Source: Rhodopirellula sp. SM50 (GTDB lineage Bacteria; Planctomycetota; Planctomycetia; Pirellulales; Pirellulaceae). From it: 64,000 bases of DNA. The position numbers and the translations under genes are program-made. The DNA lies in the NCBI RefSeq assembly GCF_002289565.1, contig NZ_NTFY01000003.1, forward strand, positions 1-64,000. The letters run 5' to 3'. Positions 15,556-51,395 of the stretch are shown piece after piece (within the stretch, counting starts at the first letter, position 1; each line of letters opens with the position of its first letter). The notes under the pieces are model-generated. The model did not search any database. It was not told where the DNA came from and was given only the letters and a program-made list of their open reading frames with translations.

Positions 15556-16758
15556 TCAACCGTGAAAACGATCTTCGTTTGGATCGTAGAGTTGGAACTT
15601 GCGGGTGCGATGGTTCCACGATGTCACGTCGAGTTCGGCGAGATCGTCGATCGTGTGGTCGTGATTTAATCCCTGTCGTAACCGGCTGGAGCCATAGATG
15701 ATGTCGATCGGTGGTTTCTGCGTTTCGTATTCGTAGGGTGGATCGAGCCAGCGAAACTCATCGGGCCAATGGTGCTGGATTACCGAGAGGATTGCGATCG
15801 ATGTTCTCAGTGATCGAAACCGCTGGGGGTCGGTGATGTGGATCGAAATGCCTCCGCACAACTCGTCCGCCCATTTGTCAAACGTGGGACGGAAATAGAG
15901 CGGCAAGAAATGAACGCCGGGCAAGTCGATGTCGGTCAACGCCAGGATCAGCGTGTCAGGATCGACGAACGGCGCCCCAACGATTTCGAAGGGCGTGGTG
16001 GTGCCGCGGCCTTCGGACAAATTGGTTCCTTCCAGCAAGACTTGGCCGGGATAGACGATGGCGGATTGGGCGGTGGGCAAATTTGGCGAGGGTAAGAGCC
16101 AGTGTCGGCGGAGTGAATCGAACGTTTCATCGGGCGACCATCCTCGGAGGGGAATGATTTCCAACGAGACGTCGATTTGCAGTTCGGATTGCAGCAACAA
16201 CGCCAACTCGCCCATTGTCAGCCCATGACGCATGGGAATCGACGCCCCGCCGACAAAGCTGGTAAAGGCATCTTCTAGCAGGGGGCCTTCGACGATCCGG
16301 CCGCCGATCGGATTGGGGCGGTCCAGCACCAGGACCGAAACGTTTGCTTCGGCGCACGCGTGCAGGCACTGCAGCATTGTCCACACGAAGGTGTAAACGC
16401 GCGTGCCGACGTCCTGCAGATCGATCACCAAGCAATCGATCCCGGCCAGCATCTCCGGCGACGGTCGTCGCGACTCGCTGTACAAGCTATAGATCGGAAC
16501 ATTGAAACCCGGGTGCCAACCGTGGTCGGTTTCGATCATGTTGGCTTGGGCATCACCCCACAGCCCGTGCTGGGGCGTGAACAAGGCGGCGATTTGACCC
16601 GGATAGGCGTCGTTGAAGAGATCACACGCCAGGCGAAGATCCCGGTCGACCGACGCACGGTTCATCAGCAATCCGATTCGCGCGGATTGCAGCACCCGAG
16701 GTCGCTCCGCCACACACGTTTCCAGTCCCAGTTGCGATTGGTGCTGCATCGCTTTCAC
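15556..16758 (-). CDS. DUF1343/NamZ-family protein, cytoplasmic paralogue
   Basis: A 400-residue member of the exo-beta-N-acetylmuramidase (NamZ/YbbC) family, which removes terminal MurNAc from peptidoglycan fragments. Family motifs are present: VIDLQDVGTRVYTFVWTM, VLDRPNPIGG, MRHGLTMGELA and EGRGTTTPFE. Two differences stand out against its neighbour. It has no signal peptide, so it is probably cytoplasmic, and the PEHG motif reads PQHG (Gln63-His64). The start is GTG at 16758, overlapping the upstream stop by 4 nt (GTGA); an ATG at 16749 is possible. It is the last gene of the symporter-NamZ-NamZ operon. It may process imported MurNAc-containing disaccharides, or be a non-catalytic or differently specific paralogue. 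Confidence 0.8.
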   Translation of the reverse strand: MKAMQHQSQLGLETCVAERPRVLQSARIGLLMNRASVDRDLRLACDLFNDAYPGQIAALFTPQHGLWGDAQANMIETDHGWHPGFNVPIYSLYSESRRPSPEMLAGIDCLVIDLQDVGTRVYTFVWTMLQCLHACAEANVSVLVLDRPNPIGGRIVEGPLLEDAFTSFVGGASIPMRHGLTMGELALLLQSELQIDVSLEIIPLRGWSPDETFDSLRRHWLLPSPNLPTAQSAIVYPGQVLLEGTNLSEGRGTTTPFEIVGAPFVDPDTLILALTDIDLPGVHFLPLYFRPTFDKWADELCGGISIHITDPQRFRSLRTSIAILSVIQHHWPDEFRWLDPPYEYETQKPPIDIIYGSSRLRQGLNHDHTIDDLAELDVTSWNHRTRKFQLYDPNEDRFHG

Positions 16759-17981
16759 GGTTCGCCTCTGCCGGCATCGCGGTACAGCAAGAACGCTTCT
16801 CGGCGGTGTTTGAAATCGCTGAGTTCATCTTGGTAGGCCCTTATTAATTGTTCAACCGATTTGGCGCTGAGAATTCCGTCGCGTGTCTTTTCGCTGACCA
16901 GCAATCGGTTCAGCGACTTCGTTTGCCAATCTTGGGGATAGAGTCGATGCAGTGTGGTGGCCAAGGTCAGTCCGGTCTCCAGCGGGTCAAACGCGGCTCG
17001 GTCGGTCACGATCAAGTTGACGCCGCCGCATTTCTGAGCCTCGTGTTTGCTCGCGTCGGGTGTAAACTCGATCGGCACAAACCGGATTCCGTCGAGCGGT
17101 TGAGCGTTCAATTCGCGGGCCAGGGTGATGGCATCGATCCAGGGGGCGCCCAAAACTTCGAAGGGAGTGTCGGTACCGCGTCCGACCGAGACGTTGGTCG
17201 TTTCCAGCAGCCCGACTCCCGGATAAAGCAACGCTTGCGTCAAACTGCGCATGTTCGGAGACGGGTTGATCCAGAGACGTCCAGTGGCGTCAAACATTTT
17301 GCTGCGATCCCAGTCCTCGATGCGAATGATTTGCAACTCGACATCAAGCTCCCATTCGGCCTTGAACATCATTGCCAATTCGCCGACGGTCATCCCATGA
17401 CGAACGGAGATCGGGTGGTAACCGACGAAGGATTCGTCACCGGGATCCAGAACGGGACCTTGCACGGAGACACCATTGATCGGGTTCGGTCGGTCCAGCA
17501 CCACAAAACGGATTTGGTGTTGGGCGGACGCTTTCATCGCCCCGCCCATGGTGGAGATGTAGGTATAGAAACGCGTTCCGATGTCTTGAATATCAAACAC
17601 AAGTGTGTCGATCCCCTCGAGCATCTCGGCCGTGGGGACTCGGGTCTTGCCGTACAAGCTATGGACTTTCAAACCTGTCAGCGAGTCGCGTTGATCATCG
17701 ATGTTTGCTTGGTCCAAGACGCCGGCGAAACCGTGTTCGGGGCTGAACAGAGCCACCAGCGTGACGTTCGGTGATTCATGGAACAGCTTGACGGTAGAGA
17801 CTCCGCGCGCGTTTGTGCCGGTATGGTTGGTGATCAAGCCAATTTTTCGGCCGGCGAGTTGTTGGAATGCGTCTCGTTGGAGCACATCAATGCCCGCCAA
17901 AACTTGCCCGGCGGCATGACGCGGCAAAGTCGCCATCAGGGCAAGGGGGAATAGCAGTGAAAGGAAGACATGCTTGTTCAT
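16755..17981 (-). CDS. namZ: NamZ-type exo-beta-N-acetylmuramidase, exported (DUF1343)
   Basis: A 408-residue protein with a signal peptide (MNKHVFLSLLFPLALMATLPRHAAGQ) and the full DUF1343 fold: RKIGLITNHTGTNARG, VALFSPEHGFAG (Glu82-His83), VFDIQDIGTRFYTYISTMGGAM, VLDRPNPINGVSVQGPV, VRHGMTVGELAMMF and VGRGTDTPFEVLGAPW. Members of this family in Bacillus and Tannerella cleave MurNAc from the non-reducing ends of glycan fragments. The ATG at 17981 overlaps the symporter stop by 4 nt, and the following paralogue overlaps this stop by 4 nt, so all three are translationally coupled. Predicted role: release of MurNAc in the periplasm for uptake by the coupled symporter and use by MurQ encoded divergently. 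Confidence 0.85.
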   Translation of the reverse strand: MNKHVFLSLLFPLALMATLPRHAAGQVLAGIDVLQRDAFQQLAGRKIGLITNHTGTNARGVSTVKLFHESPNVTLVALFSPEHGFAGVLDQANIDDQRDSLTGLKVHSLYGKTRVPTAEMLEGIDTLVFDIQDIGTRFYTYISTMGGAMKASAQHQIRFVVLDRPNPINGVSVQGPVLDPGDESFVGYHPISVRHGMTVGELAMMFKAEWELDVELQIIRIEDWDRSKMFDATGRLWINPSPNMRSLTQALLYPGVGLLETTNVSVGRGTDTPFEVLGAPWIDAITLARELNAQPLDGIRFVPIEFTPDASKHEAQKCGGVNLIVTDRAAFDPLETGLTLATTLHRLYPQDWQTKSLNRLLVSEKTRDGILSAKSVEQLIRAYQDELSDFKHRREAFLLYRDAGRGEP

Positions 17982-19522
17982 CTTGATTCCTCGTCGTGTG
18001 GTGAGTCTTTCTCGACGCTGGATGCAGCAGGGGATAGGGATGGAATGAATTGACTGGCAAGGTAGCCGGAGGCGAAGGTGGCGAGCGATCCGATGATTGC
18101 AAACCAAGGCCAGGCGATGGAGGTTCCGAATTTGATCGCGGTCAACACAGCGATCCCGGTCACCATTCCCACCAGGGCGCCGCGTTGGTGGGCCGAGCGG
18201 CTGAACATGCCCAGCGCGAACACTCCCAGCAAGATGCCTGCGGTAAAGCCCGCGATCGCCAAGGCATCGCCGACGACGCTGCGGGAGAGGTAGCTGGCTC
18301 CCATGCCGATGGCGATTTGTAGCACGCCAAAAACGATCGTGAAGACGCGACCGGCGGACAGCAGTTTGTGTGAGTGATCGGTTTGGGAATCATCTTCGGC
18401 AATTTCGGGGTAAGCCCACGGCGCGTAGAAATCGGAGACGGCGGCCGCGGCCGATGAATTCAGTGAGCTGGAAAGTGTCGACATCGCTGCGGCGAAAACC
18501 GCGGCCAGCGTGATTCCGACGAGGCCGATCGGTAGATGATCGACGATGAAGGTCGCGAAAACTTCGTCGTTGTGTTCGAACGTTTGTGGTTCGACCGCGG
18601 TGTAATAGGCGGCCAGGGCGACGCCCAGCAGCAGAAACAGCGCGAACTGGGCGAAGACCACCACACCACTGGCAATCACCGCACGTTGCGCGTCGCGCGA
18701 ACTGCGGGCACACAAATAACGCTGGACAAACATTTGGTCGGTACCATGGGTCCCCAACGTCAACACTGCACCTCCGATCAAACCCGACCAAAACGTGTAG
18801 GTCTCGGTCCACAGGCTGAATGTTTCGCTCGACTGCCAGCGGAAATCGAGAAGCTGAAATCGTCCGCTGGAGTTGCCAAATTCCCACAGTTCCGCCCAAC
18901 CTCCGGGCAAGAAACCGACCAGGATCTTGAGCGCCAAGAGTCCCCCAGCCATGTAAACAACCAGTTGCAGACAGTCGCTCCAGATCACGGCCTTCATCCC
19001 GCCGAAGAACGTGTACAGGATGGTGGCGATGCCGATCAATGCGATGCAGAGGTGGAGGTCGATTCCCAGCACCTTTTCGAGTGCGATGCCGGCTAAAAAG
19101 AGCCGTAATCCGTCACCCAGATTCCGCGTGATCAGGAACAACAGCGAGGCACATTGCTTGCTCGCCCCTCCAAATCGCTGTTGCAGGATTTCGTAAGCGG
19201 TAAAGATTTTGCCGCGGCAGTACAGCGGCACCAGCACGATTGCGACGATCACGCGGCCCAACAGAAACCCCAGCGCGAGCTGCAAGAACCGCATGTCGCC
19301 GCCGGCGGCGAACGCGATCCCCGGCACGCTCAAGAATGTTGCGGTGCTGGTTTCTGTGGCGACGATCGAACCCAGGATGGCCCACCACGGCAAATCACGC
19401 CCGCCCAGCAGGTATCCCGAAAGATCTTTCTGGTCACGCCCCACCCACACGCCCAACGCCACCATCGCCAGCATGTAGACGACTAAGATCGAAGCGTCGA
19501 TCAAACTGATTGACAAATCCAT
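17978..19522 (-). CDS. sodium:solute symporter (SSS family), candidate MurNAc importer
   Basis: A 514-residue polytopic transporter with about 13 hydrophobic segments. SSS hallmarks are GGRDLPWWAILGSIVATETSTATFLSVPG near residues 41-70 and AAVFAAAMSTLSSSLNSSAAA near 345-365. It is the first gene of a three-gene operon with two NamZ proteins, and diverges from murQ and a sugar kinase. SSS members carry sugars, amino acids and sialic acid with sodium; the context points to MurNAc or a MurNAc-containing disaccharide. A transporter of this general kind (MurT) accompanies the MurK/MurQ genes in Tannerella forsythia, as I recall it. The substrate assignment is inference from the neighbours. Confidence 0.8.
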   Translation of the reverse strand: MDLSISLIDASILVVYMLAMVALGVWVGRDQKDLSGYLLGGRDLPWWAILGSIVATETSTATFLSVPGIAFAAGGDMRFLQLALGFLLGRVIVAIVLVPLYCRGKIFTAYEILQQRFGGASKQCASLLFLITRNLGDGLRLFLAGIALEKVLGIDLHLCIALIGIATILYTFFGGMKAVIWSDCLQLVVYMAGGLLALKILVGFLPGGWAELWEFGNSSGRFQLLDFRWQSSETFSLWTETYTFWSGLIGGAVLTLGTHGTDQMFVQRYLCARSSRDAQRAVIASGVVVFAQFALFLLLGVALAAYYTAVEPQTFEHNDEVFATFIVDHLPIGLVGITLAAVFAAAMSTLSSSLNSSAAAAVSDFYAPWAYPEIAEDDSQTDHSHKLLSAGRVFTIVFGVLQIAIGMGASYLSRSVVGDALAIAGFTAGILLGVFALGMFSRSAHQRGALVGMVTGIAVLTAIKFGTSIAWPWFAIIGSLATFASGYLASQFIPSLSPAASSVEKDSPHDEESR

Positions 19523-19545
19523 GTTCCTGTATTGTGATCACCGCA

Positions 19546-19636
19546 CGGTAGGGTCGTTGGTGTTTCGATTCCACTGTCGCTGCGATGCAGCGACAGTGGA
19601 CGGCTAAAGCCTGCACACCAACACTCATGCCCGTAT
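19546..19636. repeat. dispersed palindromic repeat (family B) with perfect 13-bp hairpin in the salvage-cluster promoter region
   Basis: CCACTGTCGCTGC at 19571-19583 and its exact complement at 19587-19599 form a hairpin with a 3-nt loop. The flanks GTCGTTGGTGTTT and GCACACCAACACTCATGCC (19613-19631) recur at 24515-24533 and, inverted, at 40260-40289 and 40425-40500. It occupies the ~225-bp space between the divergent symporter and murQ starts, so the promoters must lie beside or within it. Confidence 0.85.
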
Positions 19637-19747
19637 CATTCGTACCTGGCCCCTTTTTCGTTGGGGTCGGATAGTTTATCGAATCGAATCGCCGCCGTGG
19701 TTTGTCAACGGAGGCCGAAATCAGGTGTAGAACCCCAACAACCCGAC

Positions 19748-20647
19748 ATGCTGAACAATTTGACCACTGAAGCCCGGAATCCAGAATCGAGCGAAATTGA
19801 TTCGCTGTCGGCACTGGAGATCGTTCGGCTGATGAACCGCCAAGATGCATTGATCGCTGCCGCCGTGGCCGCACAAGCGGAGTCGATCGCCGCAGCGATC
19901 GACGTGATCGCCGACCGTTTCCGTGCCGGGGGGCGGCTGTTCTACATGGGGGCGGGGACTTCGGGCCGATTGGGGGTGCTCGATGCGAGTGAATGTCCGC
20001 CAACCTTCAACACCCGGCCAGAGATGGTGGTCGGCTTGATTGCTGGAGGCGAGAAAGCGTTGACGCGTGCGATCGAAGGCGCCGAAGATCATCCTGAGTT
20101 GGGTCAACGCGACTTGGCCGACAAAGAACTGTCTGATCAAGATGTCGTGATGGGGATCGCGACGAGTGGGCGAACCCCCTACGTGATCGGCGGCTTACGA
20201 TTCGCCAACCAAGTCGGCGCCTTCACGATCGGATTGAGCTGCAATGCCGACTGTGAACTGAGTCCCCATAGTCAAATCATGATCACGCCGGTCGTCGGCC
20301 CCGAGGTGATCAGCGGTTCGACGCGGATGAAGGCGGGGACCGCCACAAAAATGGTGCTCAACATGCTCACCACCGGTGCGATGGTCCGGATCGGTAAGAC
20401 GTATGGCAATTTGATGGTCGATCTGCGTGCCACCAACGAAAAACTGACCATGCGATCCTGTCAAATTGTTGCCGAACTCACGGGGGTACCACCGCTAGAG
20501 GCACGTCAATTGTTGGACCGCTGCGATGGCGAAGTGAAGACGGCAATCGTTTCGCAGTTGAGAGGCGTCACCGCCGATGAGGCTCGTCAACAACTCTCCG
20601 AGTGCGATGGCCATTTGCGCCGCGCACTTCAACGAGACGACGCGTGA
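19748..20647 (+). CDS. murQ: N-acetylmuramic acid 6-phosphate etherase
   Basis: A 299-residue cytoplasmic SIS-fold enzyme that removes D-lactate from MurNAc-6-phosphate to give GlcNAc-6-phosphate. Diagnostic segments are [25 protein letters not shown] (catalytic Glu in ASECPP), [39 protein letters not shown] and [18 protein letters not shown], followed by a C-terminal helical UBA-like region. Length is normal for MurQ (about 300). ATG at 19748 gives the typical [10 protein letters not shown] opening; the frame upstream is not conserved. The stop overlaps the next start by 1 nt (TGATG). It anchors the functional reading of the whole 15556-21579 cluster as MurNAc salvage. Confidence 0.95.
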
Positions 20648-21579
20648 TGCATCAAGACGACTTGATCCTCGCCATCGATGGGGGCGGATCAAAGACGATG
20701 GCGTGGCTTGCGCGTCGTGATGACCAAGGCGGTCTCCAAAGAATCGGGGCCGGGCGGTCGGGGCCTTCCAACGCGCGCAGCGTCGGCTTTGAACAAGCGA
20801 CGGCGAACCTGGATCTCGCCATCGACGCTGCCTTTGATGATGCCGAGCGAGCCCGCACGACGGTGGCTAGCGCCTGTCTGTCGCTCGCCGGTGCGGATCG
20901 CGAGTCCGAGCAAGCCGAAATTCGAAGTTGGGCGCAGCAACGCGAGCTATCGCATCACTTGAAGATTACCAATGATGCGATTCCGGTGTTGTACGCGGCA
21001 TCCGACGCCGGAGTGGGGATTGCATTGATCTCCGGGACCGGTTCACTGGCGATCGGACGCAGCGCTACCGGAGCGACCGCGCGGTGTGGAGGTTGGGGCG
21101 GATTGTTTGGTGATGAAGGGAGCGGATATCAAATCGGTGTTGCCGGTTTGCGCGCCGTCGCGCGGGCTGCCGATGGTCGCGGTCCCCAAACCAGCTTGCT
21201 GCCACGTTTCCTGGAGCGATTTCAAATCGCCAATCCGAGCGAATTGGTTCCGATCATTTATTCCGAGCAAACCAATCGCTCCTCGATCGCACGGCTTGCC
21301 CCGATCGTGTTTGCGGCTGCTGAGTCGGGAGATGTCGCCGCAGCAGGCATCGTCGAGTCCGCGGCAGCGGAGTTGTCTGAGATGGTGGCAGTGCTGGCGC
21401 ACCGCCTGGGGTTCGTCGATGCGCCGTTTGTCTTTGCCGTCACGGGTGGTGTGCTAACGCAGCAGCCAGGGTTTGCCGAGCGGATACGGCTGCTGCTGGT
21501 TGATTCGAATCTGCAGCCAATGCTGCAACGGATCAATGACCCGGTTGCTGGATCGTTGGTCTTGGCCGCAGCCGAGTGA
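20647..21579 (+). CDS. BadF/BadG-type N-acetylhexosamine kinase, candidate MurNAc/GlcNAc kinase
   Basis: A 310-residue sugar kinase of the ASKHA fold. Phosphate-1 motif LAIDGGGSKTMAWL at the N-terminus, KITNDAIPVLYAAS, phosphate-2 GIALISGTGSLAIGR, CGGWGGLFGDEGSGYQIG and the adenosine motif FAVTGGVLTQQ are all visible. This family includes GlcNAc kinase and MurK, which phosphorylates MurNAc and GlcNAc at position 6. It overlaps murQ by 1 nt, which strongly suggests it supplies MurNAc-6-phosphate to MurQ. Start ATG 20647; a GTG codon at 20644 is directly adjacent. It follows that the symporter imports free rather than phosphorylated sugar, in contrast to the PTS route of E. coli. Confidence 0.85.
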   Translation: MHQDDLILAIDGGGSKTMAWLARRDDQGGLQRIGAGRSGPSNARSVGFEQATANLDLAIDAAFDDAERARTTVASACLSLAGADRESEQAEIRSWAQQRELSHHLKITNDAIPVLYAASDAGVGIALISGTGSLAIGRSATGATARCGGWGGLFGDEGSGYQIGVAGLRAVARAADGRGPQTSLLPRFLERFQIANPSELVPIIYSEQTNRSSIARLAPIVFAAAESGDVAAAGIVESAAAELSEMVAVLAHRLGFVDAPFVFAVTGGVLTQQPGFAERIRLLLVDSNLQPMLQRINDPVAGSLVLAAAE

Positions 21580-21633: not shown

Positions 21634-21820
21634 CTTGTCTTCACTTAGCGGCAGGGCGCGAGCCCTCCGGTGCTTCTTGTCTTCACTTAGCGGCAGGGCG
21701 CGAGCCCTCCGGTCTTTCACGGTGTTTTTGAAACGCGACCGGACGGCTCGCGCCGTTCCGCTAACACCGTTAGAGCCAAAGTAAGTGACATTAGGCTCGC
21801 GCCCTACCGCTAAAAATGCT
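21634..21820. repeat. dispersed repeat family C: two direct and two inverted copies
   Basis: The unit TTAGCGGCAGGGCGCGAGCC plus CTCCGGT occurs twice in direct orientation with a 42-bp period (starting near 21643 and 21685), followed by two inverted, more diverged copies (GGCTCGCGCC near 21740 and 21794, each leading into CCGCTAA). The same unit is found at 51193-51353. The block fills the space between the kinase and the convergent metallohydrolase gene and can fold into long stems. Confidence 0.9.
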
Positions 21821-24277: not shown

Positions 24278-24617
24278 GCAACGTTCCTTGTGCGAGGGAT
24301 GTGGGGTCGTGCGGGGTATCATTTTGTAACGTATCCATCGCTGGAGCGTGTGTGCCAGGGATTTTCGAGGATCGCGGATTACAAATTCGTTCTCAAAAAA
24401 ACGCCGTCAGCGGGTAAACTAGTGGACAGGATCTGGGGTTCAGCAATCGTTGGTGTGTCTCGATTAGGCGATTCCTGGTCGCTGTTAGGCAGCGTCCGTA
24501 GGCGGCTCAAGCCAGCACACCAACACTCATGCCATTCGTCACTGCCCCTTCTCCGCAGCAGTTCTCTATCACGCCATCCGTTCCCTGGAATCCGCACCCA
24601 CCTCCCGCGACTGACCA
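24278..24617. repeat. intergenic region with a partial family B repeat
   Basis: Between the divergent metallohydrolase and MacA-like genes. Positions 24483-24537 hold a partial family B copy: GGCGGCTCAAGCC followed by GCACACCAACACTCATGCC (24515-24533), the latter identical to 19613-19631. Nothing else was recognised; the MacA-like promoter presumably lies downstream of the repeat. Confidence 0.75.
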
Positions 24618-51152: not shown

Positions 51153-51192
51153 TGGTCCGTCTATCGGTAAAGGTCACGCCGTGAACGATTTG

Positions 51193-51395
51193 TTAGCGGT
51201 AGGGCGCGAGCCCTCCGGTGTGTTGGCAAAGACGCGCAGGCCCAATGCGATCTACTTTGACGCCAAGCGGGGTGTTTTTGTTAGCGGTAGGGCGCGAGCC
51301 CTCCGGTGTTGTGGCAGAGATGAAGAACCGGAGGGCTCGCGCCCTGCCGCTAAAACCTCAAGTTTCCGGCGGTGCGCTAACGCGACCACCGGCTA
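51193..51395. repeat. dispersed repeat family C: two direct copies and one inverted
   Basis: TTAGCGGTAGGGCGCGAGCC plus CTCCGGTG occurs at 51193-51220 and 51281-51308, and inverted at 51326-51353; a weaker GCGCTAACGCGACCACCGG remnant lies near 51376-51394. The copies match those at 21634-21820. The block separates the ceramidase-like gene from the esterase-like gene. Confidence 0.92.

Follow-up and report, generated by a model that had tools for sequence, protein, structure and literature searches.

A putative PTS-free MurNAc salvage island of Pirellulaceae with a Q-type NamZ protein that may substitute for AnmK

Results

Five genes in two divergent units

The window, that is, the entire 64,000-nucleotide stretch of Rhodopirellula sp. 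SM50 DNA that was analysed, contains a genuine five-gene set for MurNAc uptake and breakdown, in which three minus-strand genes face two plus-strand genes:

15556–16758, minus strand: NamZB, a signal-less NamZ_N+NamZ_C protein of the Q-type, with PQHG at residues 62–65 and PPYEYE at residues 340–345
16755–17981, minus strand: NamZA, an exported NamZ of the exo-beta-N-acetylmuramidase family, E-type, with PEHG (E82)
17978–19522, minus strand: SSS-family sodium:solute symporter, proposed as MurNAc/anhydro-MurNAc importer from its Pfam SSF domain and its place in the conserved island
19523–19747, no strand: region between the divergent units, holding a perfect 14-nt inverted repeat at 19570–19600, probably a piece of a dispersed repeat
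19748–20647, plus strand: murQ, MurNAc-6-phosphate etherase, with likely ATG start at 19748 (longest ORF from 19661)
20647–21579, plus strand: BadF-type sugar kinase, a proposed MurK-like MurNAc/GlcNAc 6-kinase

All five open reading frames lie where the preliminary description had placed them, and they overlap by 4 nt (NamZB/NamZA), 4 nt (NamZA/symporter) and 1 nt (murQ/kinase). The murQ frame spans 19661–20647 on the plus strand; the longest NamZA frame opens at 18107, within the symporter gene, and the ATG at 17981, directly followed by a signal-peptide-like N-terminus, is the sensible start. Pfam scans place NamZ_N and NamZ_C on both NamZA and NamZB, SSF on the symporter and BcrAD_BadFG on the kinase, and these two proteins are the only NamZ_N matches in their genome. 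Among the neighbours in the window that were scanned with Pfam, which are some of all neighbours, are an LRR-like protein, an ADP-ribosylglycohydrolase and two proteins without a Pfam match, and no regulator was recognised among them. The inverted repeat was considered as an operator, but its tail recurs elsewhere in the window with 3 mismatches, so that a dispersed repeat is likelier. Base composition gives no sign of a recent foreign origin of the island, with GC per kb at 0.54–0.61 throughout 10–27 kb.

The domains fit MurNAc salvage without a PTS, as originally proposed, by means of an exported NamZ, a sodium symporter, a MurNAc/GlcNAc-type kinase and MurQ. MurQ reaches the NCBIfam equivalog TIGR00274 with 399.6 bits (cut-off 302). 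Symporters of the SSS family are known for small solutes; the protein encoded here scores 240.7 bits against the SSS-family model TIGR00813 (cut-off 184) and passes no equivalog cut-off, and we infer MurNAc to be its substrate. The experimentally supported MurNAc transporter of Tannerella, MurT, is likewise placed in the sodium symporter superfamily, according to an excerpt of PMC5790795. The kinase belongs to PF01869 and its nearest solved chain is 8zo3 (E 1.3e-34), deposited as an N-acetylmuramic acid/N-acetylglucosamine kinase, whereas it stays below the equivalog cut-off of the NagK GlcNAc kinase model NF046058 (110.2 bits against 370). In Tannerella MurK, residues S133-P134-L135 and T94 set the specificity for MurNAc (PMC10465942, in part), and in our alignment the residue before the presumed catalytic Asp is Asn, the same as in 8zo3, but Thr in the Tannerella enzyme. 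Dual use of MurNAc and GlcNAc appears more likely for this kinase than strict use of MurNAc.

Conservation of the island in Pirellulaceae

The kinase-murQ pair stands divergent from the symporter-NamZA pair in 24 other Pirellulaceae loci among the 91 examined, and the full five-gene form is found in 10 further loci (11 of 92 places counting the window). Because both recur to this extent, the five-gene arrangement is not due to chance and represents a conserved island of the family. The full form is nevertheless patchy and was seen in none of six other genomes sampled from the same genus. The earlier expectation that the group is kept in relatives is supported, with this qualification for the full form. 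NamZB itself is absent from 24 loci that carry the kinase, MurQ, the symporter and NamZA, which counts against the explanation favoured below. Where it is separated from NamZA, it stands with the symporter in 7 loci. With frames overlapping the five genes set aside, even the most widespread other gene family occurs in just 12 of the 91 loci. A wider operon was rejected: the commonest neighbours, many of which lie at kilobase distances, are DUF1559 (12 loci), DUF1501 (10), an ABC ATPase (8), a ThuA/DUF7133 protein (7), an XylR-like regulator (6) and a gene in the AnmK position (6).

NamZB belongs to a distinct clade

The NamZ family corresponds to GH171 and DUF1343. Both NamZ proteins match NamZ_N and NamZ_C far above the Pfam cut-off, and neither has a match in the NCBIfam scan. 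By hydropathy, NamZA has a signal-like N-terminus and NamZB has none, in line with the proposed pairing of an exported and a signal-less NamZ. Q-type NamZB proteins in general lack the hydrophobic stretch seen in the N-termini of unfused NamZA proteins, again judged by hydropathy. The description of NamZB as simply a cytoplasmic NamZ needs amendment: the domains and the missing signal stand, yet NamZA keeps the Glu of the PEHG motif, whereas NamZB has Gln in its place (PQHG). In a tree of 217 sequences, this Gln is found in all 110 members of the NamZB clade and Glu in all 107 others. NamZB thus forms a distinct clade rather than a second NamZ copy, and the tree together with the fixed Gln rules out plain duplication of NamZA. 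Members further share a conserved, acidic and clade-specific YEYE/D motif; the clade occurs in many phyla and is apparently an unstudied subgroup. In literature that covers NamZ only in part, we recognised no account of Q-type NamZ or of AnmK-free anhydro-MurNAc hydrolysis.

We take the Glu of PEHG to be the proposed catalytic residue of NamZ, and with this Glu replaced the reaction of NamZB may differ from that of NamZA; by the same token, NamZB might be inactive. The fold is retained. The predicted NamZB model (pLDDT 87.2) matches with E ≤ 0.001 only two solved DUF1343 proteins, 4k05 and 4jja (Foldseek TM 0.85 and 0.74), and 47 positions are at least 95% conserved in both the Q-type and the E-type groups.

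MurNAc-metabolism genes linked to NamZB-type genes in other phyla

In 22 of 80 loci, none of them titled as planctomycete, a NamZB-type gene is followed on the same strand within 200 bp by a PF00483+PF01636 gene, and in 7 more the latter lies farther off in the locus. This is the domain make-up of MurU and AmgK; one representative was scanned with Pfam and the remainder are its homologues. Across 50 Q-NamZ genomes not titled planctomycete, the MurU-AmgK-like fusion is present in 32, its two halves as neighbouring genes in 12 (on opposite strands in G564), an edge piece of it in G545 and MurQ in 11, one of these just below the cut-off, so that at least one MurNAc sink occurs in 47. Two observations run against the explanation favoured below: no sink was seen in the other three genomes (G533, G566 and G570), and AmpG, which would import anhydro-muropeptides, scores above the cut-off in no more than 19 of 49 Q-NamZ genomes. 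The genome of the window likewise has no AmpG match.

Inverse occurrence of AnmK and Q-type NamZ

AnmK is scarce where NamZB occurs. PF03702 has no match in the genome of the window, and in the Planctomycetota sample it matches none of the 10 Q-NamZ genomes, compared with 216 of 392 overall (P 2.9e-4; 2.4e-4 by genus; 6.4e-4 with the window genome left out). No match over the cut-off was found in 50 Q-NamZ genomes outside Planctomycetota or in 127 genomes of one class, both samples being without comparable Q-NamZ-free genomes; sub-threshold matches number 1 and 8, respectively. In that class the Q-NamZ model matches 122 of the 127 genomes, nearly always once. Some genomes are shared between samples (for example G000, G539, G549 and G573).

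Within Pirellulaceae, strong AnmK (PF03702 score of 287 or more) is present in 9 of 149 genomes and Q-NamZ in 27, with no genome having both. When weak AnmK-family matches are included, 2 of the 27 Q-NamZ genomes score, compared with 39 of 149 (P 0.009); G004 and G070 combine Q-NamZ with PF03702 matches that exceed the Pfam cut-off, at 75 and 84 bits. Strong AnmK is confined to four genera, and the absence of overlap has P 0.013 among MurQ genomes and 0.16 among all 149, the inverse occurrence being partly phylogenetic. AnmK is close to the murQ cluster in six of the nine strong-AnmK genomes, at a distance of 7–3046 bp; a seventh genome has it 1040 bp away from murQ.

Discussion

A tentative role for NamZB

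Every reaction and substrate in the following scheme, that of NamZB above all, is our interpretation of the observed domain identities, gene order and conservation, Q signature, linkage to MurNAc-metabolism genes and inverse AnmK occurrence. Outside the cytoplasm, NamZA would clip MurNAc off the non-reducing ends of peptidoglycan fragments, and the symporter would import MurNAc and probably 1,6-anhydro-MurNAc too. The kinase would convert MurNAc to MurNAc-6-P, which MurQ would cleave to GlcNAc-6-P and D-lactate. The cytosolic, Q-type NamZB would supply the kinase with free MurNAc, most probably by hydrolysing 1,6-anhydro-MurNAc, and would thereby stand in for the anhydro-MurNAc kinase AnmK. 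The leading reading, which we hold tentatively, is of an island for MurNAc salvage without a PTS, in which NamZB replaces AnmK in this manner. The pathway had been called self-contained; it covers the steps from MurNAc release to the etherase and stops at GlcNAc-6-P. With somewhat greater reserve, we suggest that Q-type NamZ proteins at large (PQHG plus YEYE) hydrolyse 1,6-anhydro-MurNAc in the cytosol and so replace AnmK, without a phosphorylation step, in Desulfobacteria, Nitrospirota, Acidobacteriota, some Planctomycetota and other phyla. Combined with AmgK-MurU, they would allow recycling to UDP-MurNAc with neither AnmK nor MupP, and together with the kinase and MurQ they would feed catabolism.

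A less probable alternative is that NamZB performs the reaction of NamZA in the cytosol, hydrolysing a MurNAc-GlcNAc disaccharide or muropeptide imported by the symporter, with the acid provided from elsewhere, for example by PPYEYE. The common fold, the 47 shared positions and the symporter-NamZB pairing all suit such an enzyme, which would produce free cytosolic MurNAc equally. By itself it leaves the inverse AnmK occurrence and the invariant Gln unexplained, and disaccharide import by an SSS symporter is a guess, given the small solutes for which the family is known. It is improbable that the MurNAc pathway alone holds, with NamZB a minor accessory without special role and the AnmK pattern a phylogenetic by-product: the patchiness of the five-gene form and the rarity of strong AnmK in Pirellulaceae with or without Q-NamZ fit this view, but the inverse pattern recurs over several, partly overlapping samples, and of the 9 genomes with a strong AnmK copy, 7 have it in the same gene neighbourhood. 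A non-catalytic MurNAc-binding paralogue (serving as sensor, as chaperone or as an allosteric partner to the kinase or the symporter) is marginally less probable still, for although every member seen has lost an otherwise invariant Glu and the scanned neighbours include no recognised regulator, the clade keeps 47 other positions and its own acidic motif, is nearly universal and single-copy in one class and adjoins biosynthetic enzymes in other phyla.

The new point of the locus is the signal-less, Q-type NamZB, whose widespread subgroup may substitute for a well-known enzyme of recycling, and not the MurNAc pathway itself. If AnmK is indeed replaced, many bacteria recycle the reducing-end sugar of their wall by chemistry other than the AnmK route, and a gene matched in nearly all sampled genomes of one class gains a function. 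For planctomycetes, the locus points to MurNAc use without a PTS as a trait that recurs in Pirellulaceae.

Comparison with known systems

The Bacillus subtilis cluster namZ-amiE-nagZ-murP-murQ, like the window, joins NamZ with MurQ, but employs a PTS importer in place of a symporter and kinase. A part resembling PF00144, presumably the family of AmiE, precedes the NamZ domains in 58 of 77 E-type NamZ frames of Pirellulaceae, whereas NamZA of the window is without it. The Bacteroides fragilis DUF1343 structures 4k05 and 4jja share fold and domain pair with NamZB, but both have PEHG where NamZB has PQHG.

The overall pathway resembles murTKQ of Tannerella forsythia plus NamZ and is thus of a known kind. 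There, MurNAc is imported without a PTS by MurT, phosphorylated by the MurNAc kinase MurK and processed by MurQ (PMC5790795, in part), and NamZ1/NamZ2 are named in a title in the reference list of PMC10465942. Going by description rather than by sequence, both systems combine sodium-symporter-type import with a MurNAc kinase, predicted as such in the window, with MurQ and with a pair of NamZ proteins. In contrast to the single murTKQ operon, the window has two divergent units, a kinase nearest to the dual MurNAc/GlcNAc kinase 8zo3 among solved chains, and one NamZ that is Q-type and signal-less. In an excerpt of PMC7670621, Tannerella has no predicted AnmK, grows to a restricted extent on anhydro-MurNAc (OD600 about 0.28), and its handling of this sugar is called unexplored, a gap on which the proposed role of NamZB bears. 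The excerpted part of a mycobacterial preprint (PMC13041923) makes no mention of NamZ.

Anabolic recycling in Pseudomonas runs through AnmK-MupP-AmgK-MurU, and an E. coli K-12 strain deleted for anmK is reported to secrete anhydro-MurNAc (PMC5371407, in part). In the fusion that lies beside Q-NamZ in other phyla, the domains are those of the last two enzymes of this route; in contrast to the route, the 50 Q-NamZ genomes are without AnmK over the cut-off, and Q-NamZ would give MurNAc directly.

The five genes of the window

The window lies on contig C70 of the 9.8-Mb genome G000, and ORF calls confirmed both the positions and the overlaps (4 nt and 1 nt) of the five genes put forward in the preliminary description:

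15556-16758, minus strand, NamZB (signal-less, Q-type: PQHG and PPYEYE)
16755-17981, minus strand, NamZA (exported, E-type: PEHG)
17978-19522, minus strand, SSS symporter
19748-20647, plus strand, murQ
20647-21579, plus strand, kinase

Domain searches revealed NamZ_N and NamZ_C in both NamZA and NamZB, and a NamZ_N search of G000 returned no third match. By hydropathy, the N-terminus of NamZA is signal-like from the ATG at 17981 and that of NamZB is not, in line with the proposed pair of exported and signal-less proteins. MurQ scores above the TIGR00274 equivalog cut-off. The symporter was assigned to SSF/TIGR00813 by domain and family searches, and the solved structure that it matches best, the putative sodium:solute symporter 5nv9, is one we take to be a sialic acid transporter. 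The kinase is BadF-type by domain search, and its top solved match, 8zo3, is deposited as a MurNAc/GlcNAc kinase. Since Asn precedes the presumed catalytic Asp of the window kinase as in 8zo3, and not Thr as in the MurNAc-specific kinase of Tannerella (available text of PMC10465942), its sequence makes dual use of MurNAc and GlcNAc likely. We consider that the locus very probably serves MurNAc salvage.

Between the symporter and murQ, the stretch 19570-19622 holds a perfect 14-nt inverted repeat followed by GACGGCTAAAGCCTGCACACCAAC, of which copies differing by 3 mismatches lie at 24501 and 40269. REP-like palindromic repeats TTAGCGGCAGGGCGCGAGCCCTCCGGT are located at 21634-21813 and 51192-51354 (5 copies in the window vs 0 expected).

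Conservation of the island in Pirellulaceae

NamZ_N is present in 76/149 Pirellulaceae (family) genomes and MurQ above cut-off in 72/149. ORFs in 91 stretches around the family NamZ matches (L-numbers) were scored with the five window proteins, giving 92 places including the window. The complete form, with kinase-murQ divergent from symporter-NamZA-NamZB, was observed at 11 of the 92 (the window, L061, L065, L070, L079, L080, L081, L083, L098, L101 and L112), and a four-gene form without NamZB at 24, including L039 with a 4.4-kb gap. At two four-gene loci, MurQ and the BadF kinase are joined in one frame (L046:6026-7924 and L091:4807-6735), directly linking the two steps. A contig end interrupts the island in L066, no murQ or kinase lies within 7.5 kb in L102, and seven loci carry symporter-NamZB without NamZA (L037, L049, L062, L067, L076, L090 and L108). 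Many of the stretches, including several short contigs, carry only NamZA or only NamZB, which counts against tight linkage. Among six other genomes of the window's genus, G127 has the four-gene form, G086 and G111 have kinase-murQ-NamZA with symporter and NamZB absent, and G036, G138 and G148 lack a NamZ_N match. Thus, the expectation that the five-gene arrangement is kept within the family stood as to its recurrence, but not as to tight linkage, with none of these six genomes complete.

When frames overlapping the five genes were excluded, no neighbour family occurred in more than 12/91 loci. DUF1501 proteins lie 82-8774 bp from the island at 10/91 loci (L039, L101, L074 and seven more), which may merely mirror their abundance in these genomes.

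An N-terminal PF00144-like (beta-lactamase/AmiE-like) part is found in 58/77 family E-type NamZ frames (for example L036:8306-10768, L061:7238-9868 and L040:4501-7134) vs 0/27 Q-type frames, and is absent from window NamZA. A Pfam scan of six long NamZ frames located PF00144 in five and not in L035. Such a fusion was already tabulated in 2008 as DDPept-DUF1343, according to the available part of PMC2605481.

A separate Q-type clade of NamZ

Among family NamZ proteins of at least 300 aa, PQHG is present in 26/26 NamZB, which form a single clade (support 1.0), and PEHG in 69/69 NamZA; the Glu of PEHG is presumably the proposed catalytic residue of NamZ. Seven further proteins (L094, L105, L116, L122, L077, L103 and L040) carry PEHG and fall outside both groups. 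L094, L105, L116 and L122 represent another signal-less E-type subgroup with GPEHGLHGQAQDL, murQ-island genes being absent from the stretches taken.

The closest NamZB relatives among the matches listed are from Stieleria sedimenti (89%) and genome G077 (82%). A contig scan with the NamZB alignment, from which the best 80 of 581 relatives were kept, reached sequences labelled Planctomycetota, Nitrospirae, Deltaproteobacteria, Acidobacteria, Gemmatimonadetes, Verrucomicrobiota, Aminicenantes, Latescibacterota, Armatimonadetes and others. All 80 carry PQHG; the scan patterns included WxxPPYEYE and not PQHG, so that YEYE was partly selected in this set. At loci taken by profile only, six of which yielded no frame, YEYE/YEYD is present in all recovered Q-type frames (27 from the class to which the Desulfatitalea MAG G549 belongs; 10 from the Planctomycetota sample, window included; 24 from Pirellulaceae) and in 0/99 E-type frames (76, 19 and 4).

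In a 217-sequence tree, the 110 Q-type sequences form one clade with zero E-type members (support 0.936), and besides the PPYEYE insertion Q63 is the sole residue fixed differently between the two types. In the AlphaFold model of NamZB (pLDDT 87.2), Q63 lies just after strand 56-61, D113 ends strand 109-113 with D116 following it, and D146 comes after strand 141-145, from which we infer that Q63, D113, D116 and D146 line one sheet edge. The model matches structures 4k05 and 4jja, both with PEHG.

Neighbours of Q-type NamZ

At the loci of the best 80 of 581 NamZB relatives, the commonest neighbour is a ~620-aa protein with NTP_transferase and APH domains in the one representative scanned. This domain make-up is that of MurU plus AmgK, which carry out the final two steps of the Pseudomonas recycling route (available text of PMC5371407). 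At 22/80 of these loci the MurU-AmgK-like gene follows the NamZB-type gene on its own strand by no more than 200 bp, and at 7/80 it is farther off in the same locus. Among the matches listed for 50 Q-NamZ genomes not labelled planctomycete (50 of 55 chosen loci), the fusion is present in at least 32, being divided over contigs in G546 and G561 and shortened in G552, and the two halves are adjoining genes in at least 12, on opposite strands in G564 and with a stop within the match in G563. G545 has an edge piece of the gene, and no convincing match was listed for G533, G551, G558, G566 or G570. MurQ is strong in 11/50 (ten above cut-off, G551 slightly below). Because MurU/AmgK-like genes or MurQ were found in them, at least 47/50 have an outlet for MurNAc, free or phosphorylated. 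Judged from gene content, cytosolic MurNAc appears to be the factor common to Q-NamZ neighbourhoods, with kinase and MurQ in planctomycetes and AmgK-/MurU-like genes elsewhere.

Occurrence of AnmK

Strong AnmK (anhydro-MurNAc kinase, PF03702; at least 287 bits) is present in 9/149 family genomes and in none of the 27 with Q-NamZ, a zero overlap with P 0.013 among the 72 MurQ genomes and 0.16 over all 149. Thirty more family genomes, the Q-NamZ-bearing G004 and G070 among them, match PF03702 weakly (E 1e-31 to 5e-4, the majority above the Pfam cut-off); these matches represent divergent AnmK-like proteins in frames of ~360-500 aa (e.g. G054:C75:14188-15261). Pooling strong and weak matches gives 39/149 family genomes vs 2/27 Q-NamZ genomes (P 0.009). 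Across Planctomycetota, PF03702 (E <= 0.001) is found in 216/392 genomes vs 0/10 with verified Q-NamZ (P 2.9e-4; by genus 2.4e-4; with G000 excluded 6.4e-4), where, as in all AnmK tests here, samples share some genomes and descent is at most partly corrected. AnmK above cut-off was detected in 0/50 non-planctomycete Q-NamZ genomes (one sub-threshold match) and in 0/127 genomes of the class of G549, which we take to be Desulfobacteria (8 sub-threshold matches); the Q-NamZ model matches 122 of these 127, nearly always in one copy. The same searches recovered AnmK in the controls E. coli, Caulobacter and three others. AmpG scores above cut-off in 19/49 Q-NamZ genomes; G000 gave no match to it.

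AnmK lies 7-3046 bp from the murQ cluster in six measured family genomes; in G043 its distance to murQ is 1040 bp, and in G032 and G052 it is on another contig. At the six loci with AnmK nearby, an XylR-like protein (Peripla_BP_3 and AraC HTH; including L085:16484-17689) is encoded 1.3-4.4 kb from the cluster and is a candidate regulator there. In L106, a cluster with AnmK nearby is adjoined by an 876-aa protein (L106:10941-13571) joining an N-acetylneuraminate-epimerase-like Kelch domain and an SSF symporter.

Possible role of NamZB and relation to known systems

Because of the cytosolic-MurNAc neighbourhoods and the scarcity of AnmK, we suggest that NamZB would free MurNAc from 1,6-anhydro-MurNAc inside the cell, a tentative assignment for which doubt slightly outweighs confidence. 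Possibly, NamZB instead hydrolyses imported MurNAc-GlcNAc, which would likewise yield MurNAc.

Literature searches brought up no account that we recognised of the Q-type clade, of its MurU-AmgK-like linkage or of its inverse occurrence with AnmK; these may be new, evidence for which is weak because the founding NamZ papers lay outside the literature covered. The MurNAc salvage pathway of the window is itself already known in kind. In the available text of PMC5790795, Tannerella MurT is placed in the sodium symporter superfamily and termed a major facilitator in the discussion, two differing descriptions that leave its family unsettled there, and MurT together with MurK restores growth on MurNAc to an E. 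coli murP mutant.
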